Assembly: GCA_937966115.1 (NCBI GenBank)
Contig: CALCKX010000105.1
Span: 1-34,870, forward strand
Direction: 5' to 3'
From: an uncultured Chloracidobacterium sp.
Lineage (GTDB): Bacteria; Acidobacteriota; Blastocatellia; Chloracidobacteriales; Chloracidobacteriaceae
DNA length: 34,870 bases
Shown: positions 28,163-34,462 of the stretch, one piece after another
How the letters are laid out: every line of letters starts with the position of its first letter
Position numbering within the stretch: the first letter of the stretch is position 1
Translations under genes and position numbers: made by a program
The notes under the pieces: model-generated
Databases searched by the model: none
Told to the model about the DNA's origin: nothing
Seen by the model: the letters and a program-made list of their open reading frames with translations, nothing else

Positions 28163-28209
28163 GTAATGTTTGACCTTGGTTTTACGCCAAAGTAGGTTGA
28201 AATCATTAC
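28163..28209. promoter_or_regulatory. Long interrupted inverted repeat between pdxT and pscA
   Basis: Nested complementary blocks are seen: outer GTAATG (28163-28168) with CATTAC (28204-28209); middle TTTGACC (28169-28175) with GGTTGAA (28195-28201), including G-T pairs; inner TTGG (28176-28179) with CCAA (28187-28190), loop TTTTACG. Bases 28191-28194 and 28202-28203 bulge. This gives about 17 pairs. It lies about 105 bases upstream of pdxT and 200 bases upstream of pscA, and could be an RNA element or a protein-binding site for either. Confidence 0.5.
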
Positions 28210-28354
28210 GGTACACGCGTGTCTGCCCGTTGCCGCTCGCCGCTACGCACTAGTTTTCCTCGATAAAACGGGCGACGCCGCGGATTGCGCCTTTCGCGCC
28301 ATTCTTTCGTTTCCGTCCCCGCTTCGACGTCCCCGTGAGTCAGGTTGCTGATGA

Positions 28355-28377
28355 CGCCGCATTTGCTGAGCGCGGCG
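28355..28377 (+). promoter_or_regulatory. Leader hairpin of pscA
   Basis: CGCCGC (28355-28360) and GCGGCG (28372-28377) form a 6-bp stem with an 11-base loop, 20 bases before the SD of pscA (GAGGGAG, 28397-28403). The loop and left flank hold two copies of TTGCTGA (28345-28351 and 28363-28369). The whole gap 28058-28409 contains no gene; it also holds a palindrome ACACGCGTGT (28213-28222). Confidence 0.4.
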
Positions 28378-28409
28378 GGTGAGAGAGTCCTCTACAGAGG
28401 GAGTTGCTT

Positions 28410-31004
28410 ATGGCTAGCTTTTCGTCCTATGCCAACGGGGTGAAGCGGTGGTACCAGAAACTGGAACTGCCGATGCCGCCGGAACGCATTTTCGGCGCGC
28501 ATATGATGTTGATTGGTGGGCTGGCATGCCTGATTGGGACGTACTTTTTTGCCAGCATGACGATGTGGAACGATGGCTACGTGAATATCACGCTGCGTCC
28601 GCGTCTCATCTCGCTGGGAATTTACGACCCCTATGACACCGAACAAATCCAGAGGGTTTGGCTGCCGCTGATTGGCGAGTTCAGTACCAAGTCGCTTCCC
28701 TTCTTCGGGCAGTACCCTCTGACCATGACGGATTTCCGGCTCTTTGGCTGGGGGTCGTTTCACATTGGGCTGGGACTCTGGCTCATCTATGCTGGCGCCG
28801 CGCACTACTACGGCGCGCGCGGCGGCGCGACCATTGGCGAAATCTTCTGGTTGCTGCCATACGTGCCGGGCTTGAAGGGTCTATGCCAGATCAAGTGGTT
28901 CACGCCGGAAGGGCCGTGGTACAAGGTGGGACTGCCCTGGGGCAGCTTCGCCAATACGCCGTGGCCAATTCTGCGGCGAACCTATGCGGACGCGCTGAGT
29001 CCGCACACCATCTACATCGGGTTGCTGTTTTTCATCTGGGGAGCGGTGCTGTGGCTAGTCCTCGACAAGCCGCCCGTGCCGATTCAGCCGGCGCAGGTCA
29101 TGACGCCCGATGGGATGATGCCTATCGAGCAGGCGCAGTTCCCGTATGGCTGGTATGACCCCTACCTTCAGCAAGTCATGCACCCGATGAACACTATCAA
29201 CGGCGAAACCACGATGTGCTTCGTCTGGGGCGTGCTCTTCGTCGCGCTGGGCGCGTACTGGTGGTACCGGCCGCCGCGCAGCGTCAACATCACGCATTTG
29301 GAAGACACGAAAGCCGTTTTCCACGTGCACTTGACGGCGATCGGATATGTGAGCTTCGCGCTCGCCATCGTGGGCTTCCTGGCGCTGCGCAACCATCCGT
29401 CGTACCTGATGCTCAACGACATGAACGTCATCATCTACGGGAAGAAGATCGTCAATCCCGGTCGGATGATTCACAACATGATCACCTTCAACCACGTGCA
29501 GGTTGGCCTGATCTACGTGGCAGCGGGCGTCTTCCACGGCGGGCAGTACCTGCATGGGCTGAACATTTCCGGGGCGTACCGACAGGCGCGCTCAAAGTTC
29601 ATCACCTGGTTTCAGAATCCCGACCTTCAAACGAAGATCGTCGGCACGACCATGTTCGTCAGCTTCGTGACCGTGGTGTTCGGCTATGGGATGATTTGCT
29701 GGAACACCGGCTCCGAACTGGACCTCAACTTCGGCATCTACCAGTTCCGCTCCTACCGCGCGATTCAAATGGATGGCGAGGCTGGGAACGTCGGCTATCG
29801 AGTCTTTCGCCCGCAGAATGCCTGGGATCCGACGGCCGGCGGGGCATGGGTTGTCAATCCGGATGGCACGACGCTGGTCAAGGCGCGTAACTTGCAGGTC
29901 GGCGACCGAATCCTCAACGAGGAACTCGGCATCGGCTCGTCTCCGACCTATAGCTTCACGACCATCGAGGAAATTAACTACAAGCCTGAATGGGGGCAGT
30001 CGAAGCTCTACGCCGTCCAGTGGGGCAGCTGGACGCACTTCCTGCGCAAGGTCAATCCGCTGTTCTGGGTGGATAAAGGCATCTGGTATCTCCAAAATCA
30101 GAAGACGTTCGAGGCCTCGCGCAAGGCCGATGAGGCCTACCTGGCCGCTCACCTCAAAGCGGTGAGCCTGCTGAACAGGGTTGACGAAGAGAAGACCGAG
30201 GAAGCCAAGAAGGCGGCGCAGGCGGAGTTAGACAAATTCCGCCCCGAGCTCGAAAAAGCCCATGCCAACATGCTCGAGTGGAACGAGCGGCTGGCGAACA
30301 CGCCGGCGGTGCTCTATTCCAACCTGCGCGACCAGCACCGGGACGGCGAGATCAACGACGCCATTTTCTTCTGGCTGATGATTGGCGGCTGGCTGTTTGG
30401 CTTCATCCCGCTCCTGCGCATCGCTTTCCACAACTACCAAAGCCCCTGGTATCGGGACTTTGAATGGCGCAAGCAATCGCCGGACTTCCCGTGCATCGGG
30501 CCGGTCAAGGGCGGCACGTGCGGCGTCTCGATCCAGGATCAGCTCTGGTTCTGCATCCTGTTCTCCATCAAGCCGCTATCGGCCATCGCCTGGTATCTGG
30601 ACGGCGGCTGGATTGCAACCATGATGGCGCGCGGCAACGAGGCCTACTACCTGACGCACAACATCAGCCACACCGGCGGCGTGTTCCTCTATATGTGGAA
30701 CGAGACGACGTGGATTTGGACCGACAACCATTTGACGGCCATGCTGCTGCTCGGACACCTCATCTGGTTCGTGAGCTTCGCGCTCTGGTTCAAGGATCGC
30801 GGCTCGCGCGCGGAAGGCGGCGACATTCAGAGCCGCTGGGTGCGCCTGATGGGCAAGCGGCTCGGCATCAAAACGCTTCAGGAAGTGCGCTTCCCGGTCT
30901 CGAACTTGGCCACCGCCAAGCTGTGGGGAACGGTGTTCTTCTACACCGGGACGTTCGTGCTGGTCTTCCTGTATTTTGCCGATGGATTCTTCCAGAATCG
31001 GTAG
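28410..31004 (+). CDS. pscA: Type I photosynthetic reaction-centre core protein PscA
   Basis: PscA forms the homodimeric core of the type I reaction centre and binds the special pair, antenna bacteriochlorophylls and the FX iron-sulfur cluster. The protein is 864 aa and starts at ATG 28410, six bases behind a strong SD. The FX-binding motif FPCIGPVKGGTC gives C695 and C704; two subunits supply the four ligands of the shared [4Fe-4S] cluster. Many hydrophobic helices with histidines fit the 11-helix fold, for example HNMITFNHVQVGLIYVAAGV and HLTAMLLLGHLIWFVSFAL. A large hydrophilic insert at about residues 434-645 lies between helices, including a charged coiled-coil-like segment (DEEKTEEAKKAAQAELDKFR). 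It leads the pscA-pscB-fmoA set. Confidence 0.97.
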   Translation: MASFSSYANGVKRWYQKLELPMPPERIFGAHMMLIGGLACLIGTYFFASMTMWNDGYVNITLRPRLISLGIYDPYDTEQIQRVWLPLIGEFSTKSLPFFGQYPLTMTDFRLFGWGSFHIGLGLWLIYAGAAHYYGARGGATIGEIFWLLPYVPGLKGLCQIKWFTPEGPWYKVGLPWGSFANTPWPILRRTYADALSPHTIYIGLLFFIWGAVLWLVLDKPPVPIQPAQVMTPDGMMPIEQAQFPYGWYDPYLQQVMHPMNTINGETTMCFVWGVLFVALGAYWWYRPPRSVNITHLEDTKAVFHVHLTAIGYVSFALAIVGFLALRNHPSYLMLNDMNVIIYGKKIVNPGRMIHNMITFNHVQVGLIYVAAGVFHGGQYLHGLNISGAYRQARSKFITWFQNPDLQTKIVGTTMFVSFVTVVFGYGMICWNTGSELDLNFGIYQFRSYRAIQMDGEAGNVGYRVFRPQNAWDPTAGGAWVVNPDGTTLVKARNLQVGDRILNEELGIGSSPTYSFTTIEEINYKPEWGQSKLYAVQWGSWTHFLRKVNPLFWVDKGIWYLQNQKTFEASRKADEAYLAAHLKAVSLLNRVDEEKTEEAKKAAQAELDKFRPELEKAHANMLEWNERLANTPAVLYSNLRDQHRDGEINDAIFFWLMIGGWLFGFIPLLRIAFHNYQSPWYRDFEWRKQSPDFPCIGPVKGGTCGVSIQDQLWFCILFSIKPLSAIAWYLDGGWIATMMARGNEAYYLTHNISHTGGVFLYMWNETTWIWTDNHLTAMLLLGHLIWFVSFALWFKDRGSRAEGGDIQSRWVRLMGKRLGIKTLQEVRFPVSNLATAKLWGTVFFYTGTFVLVFLYFADGFFQNR

Positions 31005-31013
31005 CTGACGCGC

Positions 31014-31047
31014 CGGCGGCGGAGATTGGCTTGACTATCCGCCGCCG
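31014..31047 (+). terminator. Strong hairpin between pscA and pscB
   Basis: CGGCGGCGGA (31014-31023) and TCCGCCGCCG (31038-31047) form a perfect 10-bp stem with a 14-base loop, ten bases behind the pscA stop. CTTTCCC follows, a weak T-rich tail. It could be an attenuator or a 3'-end stabiliser that separates pscA from pscB output. Confidence 0.6.
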
Positions 31048-31113
31048 CTTTCCCGGCCGCGCGCCGAGTCATGTAATAAAGTTCACATTGCCGCCGGTGA
31101 CGGTTGTGGACAT

Positions 31114-31137
31114 TTTTTCAATACGGGCCTTGAAAAA
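31114..31137 (+). promoter_or_regulatory. Palindromic site upstream of pscB
   Basis: TTTTTCAA (31114-31121) and TTGAAAAA (31130-31137) are a perfect inverted repeat with an 8-base spacer, about 40 bases before the pscB start. Twofold symmetric AT-rich sites of this size are typical of dimeric regulators. The regulator is unknown. Confidence 0.45.
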
Positions 31138-31175
31138 GTATCCGTCATTCTCCGGTGTGAAAGGCAAGAGTCACC

Positions 31176-31709
31176 ATGGCAGAAGAGAAAGCAGAAACGA
31201 CCAGTGGCGCGACGGCGGAAGCTCAGGCGGCTAAAGCGCCGGCCAAGGCGGCCGCCAAAGCCCCGGCCAAGGCGCCCGCCAAAGCCCCGGCCAAGGCGCC
31301 CGCGAAAGCGGCGCCACCGCCTATTCCAGGTCCGCCGAATCGGTTGTCGCGCCCGAAGACGGCAGCGCCCAAGCGGAAGCGCGATAGGCAAATTTACACC
31401 ATCATCGAGGAGTTGTGCATTGGCTGCGGCTTCTGTACTGACGAATGCCCGCCCAAGGTCAACGCCATCCTGCCGCGCGATGTGGAAGCCGTTCTCGATG
31501 GCGGCGAAACGTACTGGATTGATCAGGCGCGGTGCATCAGTTGCTCGCTGTGCTTTGTGGCTGGAACCTGTCCCACGGATGCAGTGGTGTTCACGGAAGG
31601 CGGCGTCTCGCGCACGCAATACATGGAAGACTACATGCATATCGAGATGGTGAATCAGCCATACTGGCGCGAACGGAATGAATTGTCCCGGATTGGGTCA
31701 ATCCTTTGA
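31176..31709 (+). CDS. pscB: Reaction-centre iron-sulfur subunit PscB (FA/FB ferredoxin)
   Basis: PscB carries the FA and FB [4Fe-4S] clusters that take electrons from FX. The protein is 177 aa. Its N-terminal 50 residues are a repeated Ala/Lys/Pro segment (AKAPAKA units), coded by a 24-bp DNA repeat. The first cluster motif is CIGCGFCTDECP (C81, C84, C87, C91). The second is CISCSLCFVAGTCP (C120, C123, C126, C132), in which five residues instead of the usual three separate the third and fourth cysteines. A C-terminal extension (EDYMHIEMVNQPYW) follows. It lies 172 bases downstream of pscA and 266 bases before fmoA. Confidence 0.96.
   Translation: MAEEKAETTSGATAEAQAAKAPAKAAAKAPAKAPAKAPAKAPAKAAPPPIPGPPNRLSRPKTAAPKRKRDRQIYTIIEELCIGCGFCTDECPPKVNAILPRDVEAVLDGGETYWIDQARCISCSLCFVAGTCPTDAVVFTEGGVSRTQYMEDYMHIEMVNQPYWRERNELSRIGSIL
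31230..31301 (+). repeat. 24-bp in-frame repeat coding the PscB Ala-Lys-Pro tail
   Basis: Three consecutive 24-base units (31230-31253, 31254-31277, 31278-31301) encode AKAPAKA(A/P) blocks. The last two units are identical; the first differs at a few positions. A partial fourth unit follows. Copy number may vary between strains. Confidence 0.85.
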
Positions 31710-31975
31710 AGTACATTGGAAGCGTGAGCGCCTCCCAAGCTGCGGCGCGCGCTTTCCAGGTCTGAACCCCGGAGCTGGCCGCAGTAGCTTTTAGGCGTTA
31801 GCCCTTCTCGCTACTGCAGCTCGGACGGATGGAAGCCCCGTCCTAAAAATCAGGTCTTCCGCTCTCTGCGTCCCCTGCGCTCGAAACCCCGTGCTGTGGA
31901 TTGAAACGGGGCGCCGAGGCCGGCTCAGCGGCTGATCGCCGGCCTGTCACCTTCCTTCTTGCAGGAGACTGCCGT
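31710..31975 (+). other. Structured leader between pscB and fmoA
   Basis: The 266-bp gap contains no gene but four successive predicted stem-loops. A: GAGCT (31772-31776) and GCAGTAGC (31781-31788) pair with GCTACTGC (31810-31817) and AGCTC (31818-31822), with an inner GGC/GCC hairpin. B: GGACGG (31823-31828) with CCGTCC (31838-31843). C: CCCCGT (31887-31892) with ACGGGG (31906-31911). D: AGGCCGGC (31917-31924) with GCCGGCCT (31938-31945), with inner TCAG/CTGA. The fmoA SD (AGGAG) lies 18 bases behind D. Hairpin D with CTTCCTTCTT behind it could be an attenuator. Confidence 0.6.
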
Positions 31976-33073
31976 ATGGCAAGCAAACTCACGACCTCAA
32001 ACTATGACCTTGACCTTGACGCAACAGGTTGGGGGACGCTCCGCGCTGAAGCCCGAATTTCCAACGTGCCTTCAGCTTCCCCGCTTTTACCGATTGATGG
32101 CGAGCTGAAGCTCGAAGCCAAAAAAATAGAAGACGATGTGGTGCGGCTCACGTTCTTTGGACAATCCATCGTGGACGGCATTCTAGGCCGCGTCGAGGGG
32201 GAGTCGGACATCGCCAACGAGTCGCCGACGCGCCGGGTCGCGGCCGGCGATGGCAAGATCACCGTTGGCAAGTTCTCGCATCGTTTCGAGTTTGAAGGCG
32301 TTGTGGATTGTCTGCGCTACTGGCGGTCAAAGGCCATTGACGACAACATCATCGCGCGCAAGCAGCGCCTTTTGTGCGGCAACTTGTTTCACGATCTCTC
32401 GATTCGCGTGCCGCTCGACAGCGAGGAAGTCATTGACACATGGCTCGAAATGCAGGACGCCTTCCGCAACTCGCCCAACTTCGGCGATTACATCAAGGAT
32501 GTCTGGCTCATCGGGCCGCTCTGGAACGCCCTTGAGCAAACTGGGCAAAGCCTTGACAACATTGACGTTTACTATTTCTCGGAGGTCGAGGGCGGCGAAA
32601 AGTCGCGGATTGACTTCCGCTTCGCGGGCGGCGGCACGGGGATTGTGGACTCCATCAGCCGCTGGCTCGAGCTGTTCCCGATTGACGGGCTAGGCAAGCC
32701 GGTCAACCAGGGCGGGCGCGTCGCGCGGCTGCAAGGAAACTTCAATGCCAGCGTGCAGGGCGTTGAGGTCAAGCTCTTCGTCGAATTGCCGGGCTTCACC
32801 GTCCCGATTGAAGGCGGCAAGCGAAAGATTCTCAATCATCCGCTCGTGCCGCTGGCGCACCATGGCATCGCCGTTAACTCCGAGCCGGCCGATCTCGGCA
32901 TTCGCTTCAAGGTTTCCATTCCCAAAGGCAAGAAGTTCGTCGAAACCGCCAATAGCTTCGAGTGGGACCGCGTCGCCGAAAACGTGCGCGTCTTCACTGG
33001 CGGGCGCTACAAGGCTTGGGCCGAGGGCATCTGCAAGGGCAGTTACTCGCCGTTTGACATTTTCTTTGGATAA
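31976..33073 (+). CDS. fmoA: Fenna-Matthews-Olson bacteriochlorophyll a protein
   Basis: FmoA is a trimeric water-soluble antenna that passes excitation energy from the chlorosome baseplate to the reaction centre. The protein is 365 aa (green sulfur forms are about 366), from ATG 31976 with AGGAG eight bases upstream. Bacteriochlorophyll ligands of the C-terminal block are seen: NHPLVPLAHHG gives H288, H295 and H296, with the same spacing as the known 290/297/298 histidines. FLFVELPGFTVPIEGGKRK-like strands and the ending SYSPFDIFFG fit the family's beta-sheet shell. A longer frame upstream (from 31901) is a leader, not a signal peptide. Confidence 0.97.
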   Translation: MASKLTTSNYDLDLDATGWGTLRAEARISNVPSASPLLPIDGELKLEAKKIEDDVVRLTFFGQSIVDGILGRVEGESDIANESPTRRVAAGDGKITVGKFSHRFEFEGVVDCLRYWRSKAIDDNIIARKQRLLCGNLFHDLSIRVPLDSEEVIDTWLEMQDAFRNSPNFGDYIKDVWLIGPLWNALEQTGQSLDNIDVYYFSEVEGGEKSRIDFRFAGGGTGIVDSISRWLELFPIDGLGKPVNQGGRVARLQGNFNASVQGVEVKLFVELPGFTVPIEGGKRKILNHPLVPLAHHGIAVNSEPADLGIRFKVSIPKGKKFVETANSFEWDRVAENVRVFTGGRYKAWAEGICKGSYSPFDIFFG

Positions 33074-33199
33074 CGCGCTCTCTGGGCGAGGACGCTTCCG
33101 CGACGCGGCGGCGCCTTGACCCAAGCGTTGCGGGAAATAGCGGTCAAGTTTAGCTGCCGGCGCGCGGAGCAGGGGCTGCGCGCGCCGGCCGGGGCAATC

Positions 33200-34462
33200 A
33201 TGACAGGCACACGAGTCATTATCTATTCCGGTAAGGGCGGCACGGGGAAAACGACCGTCTCGGCGGCGACTGCCGTGACGCTGGCGGCGGCCGGGAAAAG
33301 AGTTCTGGTCATTTCAAGCGATCCGGCCCACTCGCTTGGGGACGTGTTTCAGGTATCGCTTTCGCGGACTGAGCCGACCCCGATTGCCGAGAGCCTCTTT
33401 GGCTTGGAAATCGACACGCTCTACGAAGCCAAGCGCAACATGGGCAACTTCGAGAAGTTCGTATCGGAAAGCTATGAAAAGCGCGGCATTCGCTCTTCGG
33501 TGGCTTCCGAGCTTTCGACGCAGCCCGGACTCGATGAAATCTTCTCGCTGGTGCGCCTGCACCGGGAAGCGCTGTCTGGTCACTGGGATGTCGTGATTCT
33601 CGACACGTCGCCCACGGGAAATACGCTGCGCTTGCTAGCCTATCCGGAGCTCATCGTGGGCGGCAGCACCGGAAAGAAGCTCTTCCGCGTGTATCAGGGC
33701 ATGTCTTCCATGATGAAGCCGTTTGGCTCGTCAAATGGGCCGGATCCGGAATTTTTCAACGAAGTCAATCAGCTGCTCGACGCGATGAATCAGGTGAGCG
33801 CGTTTCTCACCGGAGAGAAGGTCACGCTACGCCTCGTCATCAACCCGGAAAAGCTTTCGATTCTTGAAAGCAAGCGCGCCTATACCTTTACGCACATCTA
33901 TGGGCTGACCATTGACGCAGTGGTCGTCAACAAGATTTACCCGGTTGGAGATGCGCTTCACGGCGCGGAGCTGGGAAGCTATTTTGACTACTGGTCAAAG
34001 CTCCACGGGCGCTATCTAGAGGACATCGAGGCGGCTTTCGCGCCGCTGCCGATTTTCAAGCTATTTCTTGAGCCCTGCGAGCCGCTGGGCGTATCCGCGC
34101 TGCGGCAAGTCGGCGTCAAGGCGTTTGGCGCGGCGGACATCGGAGCGGTGCTCTACAACAAGAAAAACATGTGGGTTGAGGAGCGGCAGGCCGCCGACGC
34201 GCCGGATATTCGGCGGTTTGTCGTGCGGATTCCGTTTCTGGCGGAAAGCGAGCGCATCGAGGTGCAGCGCGTCGGCATGGACCTGTACCTGTGCATTGGG
34301 CGGATCGCTCGCAGCGTCTCGCTGCCGAGGATTTTGTCCAACGCTGACTTGGTTGGCTACGTGGCGGAAGGCGAGCTGCTGACGGTGACATTCCGCGAGC
34401 GCGCCCGCGAGCCCGAGCCGCCTCGCTTGACGCGGCTGAGACGTTCCCCGGCCGGCGCTTGA
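33200..34462 (+). CDS. ArsA/Get3-like ATPase with HSP20-like C-terminal domain
   Basis: The protein is 420 aa from ATG 33200; a longer TTG frame adds 28 unlike residues. The deviant Walker A is SGKGGTGKTT, followed by VISSDPAHSLGDVF and VVILDTSPTGNTLRLLAYPE, which place it in the ArsA/Get3 family. Only one ATPase domain is present, so it would work as a dimer, like Get3. The C-terminal 70 residues (FVVRIPFLAESERIEVQRVGMDLYLCIG to LLTVTF) form an HSP20-like domain often attached to bacterial ArsA-type ATPases. No arsenic genes are near. It follows fmoA by 126 bases and may help assemble or target photosynthetic proteins. Confidence 0.9.
   Translation: MTGTRVIIYSGKGGTGKTTVSAATAVTLAAAGKRVLVISSDPAHSLGDVFQVSLSRTEPTPIAESLFGLEIDTLYEAKRNMGNFEKFVSESYEKRGIRSSVASELSTQPGLDEIFSLVRLHREALSGHWDVVILDTSPTGNTLRLLAYPELIVGGSTGKKLFRVYQGMSSMMKPFGSSNGPDPEFFNEVNQLLDAMNQVSAFLTGEKVTLRLVINPEKLSILESKRAYTFTHIYGLTIDAVVVNKIYPVGDALHGAELGSYFDYWSKLHGRYLEDIEAAFAPLPIFKLFLEPCEPLGVSALRQVGVKAFGAADIGAVLYNKKNMWVEERQAADAPDIRRFVVRIPFLAESERIEVQRVGMDLYLCIGRIARSVSLPRILSNADLVGYVAEGELLTVTFRERAREPEPPRLTRLRRSPAGA

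Follow-up and report, generated by a model that had tools for sequence, protein, structure and literature searches.

An uncultured Chloracidobacterium sp. carries the gene for its FMO antenna protein directly behind the genes for its type-1 reaction centre, and the stretch that separates them raises the question of what it contributes to the amount of antenna that is made. No description of the balance between FMO antenna and reaction centre in chlorophototrophic Acidobacteriota was found in the open-access literature. Within the window, i.e., the whole 34,870-nt stretch of DNA that was analysed, the upstream cistron pscB (31176–31709, + strand), coding for the Fe-S subunit of the type-1 reaction centre, was recognised by its open reading frame, gene order and conserved cysteine motifs. 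It is followed by fmoA (31976–33073, + strand), coding for the 365-aa FMO antenna protein, and the corresponding proteins of seven relatives are 95–99% identical. The gap measures 266 nt (31710–31975) from the pscB stop to the fmoA ATG at 31976, exactly as given in an earlier note on this DNA.

Eight fmoA-bearing genomes were found and compared, namely the organism's own (G000, a 2.8-Mb draft, 85% complete), six more of the genus and one from another genus of the family (G008); the comparison covers no more than eight sequences, and a single genus supplies seven. The order pscA-pscB-fmoA is kept in all eight, each has a homologous pscB-fmoA gap of 245–317 nt, and a DNA search placed the gap once in every genome of the genus, at the orthologous place. 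A search from 30950 to 33300 detected neither a sigma-70-like promoter nor an intrinsic terminator, and conserved leaders stand at all three cistrons of the apparent pscA-pscB-fmoA operon. One long message in which every cistron has its own conserved leader would suit this arrangement, and co-transcription is inferred. The gap is a conserved structured RNA element and not a chance cluster of hairpins. It is very probable that this element is functional in some way; probably it helps to set the amount of FMO antenna protein made, and it might thereby set the antenna-to-reaction-centre ratio.

Conservation and hairpins of the gap

The earlier note had drawn four consecutive stem-loops, A to D, and had described the gap as having almost no sequence outside them. 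All four can be drawn, with the correction that hairpin A has 11 positions including a mismatch and not 13 clean pairs. Folded as a whole, the gap has only a small advantage over its dinucleotide shuffles (z −1.56, 7/100); four stacked hairpins alone are therefore not significant, and comparative evidence is needed. As a group, the hairpins held up in part: hairpin A is significant in eight species, whereas the whole gap barely beats shuffles and hairpins C and D mostly do not.

Conservation across the gap, expressed as identity to the window among the eight genomes, is very uneven. The region of hairpin A is 23–67% identical, mostly below the third codon positions of fmoA (57–73%), the region of C and D is strongly diverged (29–64%), and the pseudoknot region (see below) retains 64–88% within the genus. 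The blocks CCCCGGAG and TGCGTCCCCTGC and the fmoA ribosome-binding site GCAGGAGAC are unchanged in 8/8 genomes. The first belongs to a conserved single-stranded island, AACCCCGGAG (31765–31774, + strand), the second occupies 31867–31878 and the third is the fmoA Shine-Dalgarno (SD) region at 31961–31969, both on the + strand. Contrary to the description of a gap made up of hairpins, its most conserved parts, 31765–31774 and 31853–31878, lie outside them, and these invariant single-stranded islands are parts of interest along with the eye-catching hairpins. In G008 (L009), the conserved core of the gap is surrounded by several GATTGAAGATTTTCGATT-like repeat copies, which occur in either orientation.

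Hairpin A (P1, 31778–31820, + strand) is long and GC-rich, and its pairing is kept while its sequence varies. The strands, 31778–31788 and 31810–31820, contain one C.A mismatch, and in 8/8 fmoA genomes the hairpin is placed between the two invariant islands, with the same SD. The P1 segment after CCCCGGAG folds better than shuffles in all eight species (p 0.001–0.008); the segment before hairpin A is mostly not significant in the same comparison. In a structural alignment of P1, 63 of the 64 cells over eight pairs are standard pairs, two-sided changes occur at seven of these pairs, and the exchange of strands between species lowers pairing to 57.6%. This alignment was made by hand and fitted to the structure, and is accordingly biased towards it; the shuffle test is independent of the alignment and hence unaffected by that bias. 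These results are strong evidence that RNA structure at P1 is under selection.

Hairpin B, or stem S1 (31823–31843, + strand), pairs GGACGG with CCGTCC over six base pairs (31823–31828/31838–31843) and has the loop ATGGAAGCC. In G003 the stem reads AGACAG/CTGTCT and is compensated at two pairs. The earlier note had let its RNA reading depend on compensatory changes in the homologous gaps; they are present in hairpin A, at 7/8 pairs, and weakly in B. Covarying structure, comprising P1 and two pairs of S1, thus precedes fmoA in several of the species, as is general for cis-regulatory leader RNAs.

The GGAAGCC of the hairpin B loop (31831–31837) is complementary to a downstream GGCTTCC within GGTCTTCC (31853–31860), and this second helix, S2 (31831–31860, + strand), would make an H-type pseudoknot with S1; the first loop of this pseudoknot would be short and its crossing loop (31844–31852) mostly A-rich. 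A strict version of the pseudoknot (S1 of at least 5 bp, S2 of 7 bp) is present at the expected place in five of the eight species, and in the shuffled gaps of those five it arises anywhere in 3–7%. S2 has a one-base bulge in G000, is partial in G005 and is absent in G008. As the changes in S2 are one-sided only, the pseudoknot is probable and not proven.

Hairpins C (P3) and D (P4) together span 31887–31945 (+ strand). The former has 6 bp (31887–31892/31906–31911) and the latter 8 bp (31917–31924/31938–31945). Hairpin D stops 17 nt short of the AGGAG core, almost the 18 bases to the fmoA SD that the earlier note had counted. Compared with shuffles, the C/D region is near chance in the window (G000, p 0.26) and gives p 0.002–0.23 in the other species.

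Possible masking of the fmoA Shine-Dalgarno region and its alternatives

A function for the invariant blocks is suggested by the pairing of TGCGTCCCCTGC, the proposed anti-SD, with GCAGGAGAC. It is predicted in every species, across 79–101 nt of diverged intervening sequence that in G008 is unalignable. The predicted helix consists of CCUGC/GCAGG, an A.C mismatch and GUC/GAC, with two further pairs in most species; it would enclose hairpins C and D, has a duplex energy of −12.8 to −14.6 kcal/mol and, with folding started at the motif, shows a pairing probability of 0.41–1.00 in 8/8 species. With the 12-mer shuffled, the SD was on average more accessible in each of the eight. When the entire gap is folded, G003, G005 and G008 show the pairing strongly, G001 (0.14) and G004 (0.06) show it weakly, and G000, G002 and G006 are intermediate at about 0.4–0.6. 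In three species (G003, G006 and G008) the SD also has a slightly better partner in a different 12-mer of the gap. Neither strand of the helix varies, so that covariation cannot test it, and the A.C mismatch in its middle is invariant too. The complementarity by itself is modest (p 0.02–0.04) and the strands do not vary, and for these reasons we favour only tentatively the proposal that the gap is a cis-acting leader which masks the fmoA SD and gates the translation of FMO.

In the proposed mechanism, the gap would be transcribed within the pscA-pscB-fmoA message and act as a cis-acting fmoA leader. P1 and the pseudoknot-like S1/S2 domain would adjoin, on the upstream side, the 12-nt strand 31867–31878, and this strand would pair, as GCGUC-C-CCUGC with GCAGG-A-GAC, over the fmoA SD and mask it. 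Masking would lower initiation until the leader is refolded, cleaved or bound by some factor, and FMO output could in this way be tuned separately from the reaction centre; hairpin A may also stabilise the message. Lying immediately before fmoA, a conserved leader RNA of this kind offers a concrete and testable control point. It is rather unlikely, in our judgement, that the leader is in addition a ligand- or protein-sensing switch, in which P1 and the pseudoknot would sense a signal of the photosynthetic apparatus (e.g., a pigment precursor or cofactor) and free the fmoA ribosome-binding site. Such a switch, if real, would mean that the antenna is made in step with the pigment supply, and like leaders before pscA and pscB would then place the whole type-1 reaction-centre operon under translational gating. 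An alternative "on" pairing, of GGACG with the CGUCC of the anti-SD, was rejected as it fails in G003.

The main rival to SD masking is an intercistronic processing or stability element similar to that of puf, in which cleavage within the gap leaves P1 at an RNA end, where it protects one segment and gives the antenna and reaction-centre messages different decay rates. We consider this explanation somewhat less likely than SD masking. It builds on P1, the best-supported part of the gap, which depends on structure and not on sequence and which is, as in puf, a stable hairpin between cistrons; a long hairpin of variable sequence also starts the pscA-pscB gap in most species, and there is precedent in the segmental stability of puf mRNA and the puf intercistronic hairpin region (PMC6238624). 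Nevertheless, a stability element alone leaves the invariant CCCCGGAG and TGCGTCCCCTGC and the pseudoknot unexplained, and no AU-rich RNase E-type site was seen conserved beside P1. SD masking and a puf-like stabilising role of P1 could both be true.

Short invariant blocks between variable sequence could also be protein sites at the level of DNA, serving a regulator or an RNA polymerase that transcribes fmoA separately, and the antenna might be expected to need more transcript. Such an internal promoter or operator is improbable, since the gap is devoid of promoter-like hexamers, yet a conserved TTGACC-17-TAGGTT is found upstream of pscA, and the covariation of P1 pairing is a signal at the RNA level. 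The stacked hairpins of the gap had also led the earlier note to consider an attenuator, next to a processing or stabilising region. A regulatory or processing RNA is supported by the covariation of hairpin A. GC-rich hairpins are present in the gap, but a transcription attenuator in the form of an intrinsic terminator between pscB and fmoA is very unlikely: no stem followed by a T run was found, against 3.4 expected in shuffles. The earlier note had offered the remnant of a mobile element of IS200/IS605 type, on account of the superficial likeness of GGACGG...GAAGCCCCGTCC to the ends of such elements, a likeness without computed support. This origin, like that from a REP-like element, can be dismissed, as the gap is a single copy in the genome and lies at the orthologous place in all eight fmoA-bearing genomes, and Y1 transposase (PF01797) was not detected in G000 (85% complete), G002 or G006. 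Eleven matches to this transposase family, many of them truncated or with stops, were observed on several contigs of G003.

Several further candidates were examined and rejected. A CsrA site was suggested by the repeated GGA; PF02599 was matched in none of ten genomes of the family, and control genomes were matched. A small open reading frame from the ATG at 31829 has neither a conserved frame nor a conserved stop, and G005 and G008 are without an ATG there. At the other places with TGCGTCCCCTGC in the genomes the remaining parts of the element are missing, and several of these places resemble coding sequence. Finally, the CTTC...CGTCCCC motif common to the pscA and fmoA leaders occurs at the level of reversed controls in most genomes.

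Relation to known RNAs and to the other leaders of the operon

Among Rfam families, only a tRNA was matched in the window, and a search over 31000–32100 with E up to 10 gave no credible match; weak matches to CRISPR-repeat and other families had E above 0.5 and were discarded. The only strong matches to a covariance model of 31823–31878 were those at fmoA within the genus (1e-14 to 1e-18, as rough E-values), and the site of G008 itself matched it at chance level (0.88). Other matches to this model among 118 genomes were weak, and the best two of them, in G021 and G048, turned out to be simple-repeat sequence and a long open frame, respectively. By the covariance model, the element is a single locus per genome. 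No description of such an element was found in the open-access literature, and it is apparently undescribed.

The psaA, psbNH, PhotoRC-I and PhotoRC-II motifs (RF01752, RF01753, RF01716 and RF01717) are leaders of cyanobacterial photosystem genes (PMC2864571). The fmoA element resembles them as a candidate cis-regulatory leader RNA obtained by comparative genomics in one group of phototrophs (PMC2864571). It differs from them in having no Rfam match, another structure and another phylum, and it sits between two cistrons of an apparent operon, ahead of an antenna gene. Few RNA leaders are known for photosystem genes, and the fmoA leader would extend them beyond the cyanobacteria.

In Rhodobacter puf, a hairpin lies between the light-harvesting and reaction-centre cistrons, and segmental mRNA stability contributes to their ratio, as stated with reference to Klug et al. 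(1987) in PMC6238624. The likeness consists in a hairpin between antenna and reaction-centre cistrons (PMC6238624). Here, in contrast, the gene order is reversed, with the reaction centre first, and the fmoA element additionally has invariant single-stranded islands and a strand that may mask the SD.

The SAM/SAH and preQ1 translational riboswitches employ a compact H-type pseudoknot upstream of the ribosome-binding site (PMC7367207, PMC11625349). The fmoA leader shares with them a probable compact pseudoknot upstream of the ribosome-binding site, but its SD is located about 100 nt downstream, outside the pseudoknot, and the element is without family match or known ligand and has one target gene only. 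A further H-type pseudoknot translational riboswitch is SAM-II.

Conserved sequence was also observed around the other cistrons. In the pscA-pscB gap, a long hairpin of variable sequence (31005–31064) follows the pscA stop in most species; hairpins between cistrons therefore recur in the operon. The 3′ 114 nt of the same gap (31065–31178) are 89–94% identical in BLAST matches, even above the fmoA leader, and form a single-copy block in seven genus genomes. This block can form a hairpin (UGACGG/CCGUCA, UUUUUUCAA/UUGAAAAA), partly compensated in G008, with an outer helix that adjoins the pscB ribosome-binding site; alternatively, its GGUGAC can pair with GUCACC just before the pscB ATG. Its fold energies are near shuffle level. 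Upstream of pscA, further blocks common to the seven genus genomes are present at 28166–28409, and the promoter-like TTGACC-17-TAGGTT pair of the window is closely kept in the other genomes of the genus. After this pair, AACGGGCGACGG is complementary to CCGTCCCCG, two copies of CGTCCCC occur, and CCTCT/AGAGG is found around the pscA ribosome-binding site.
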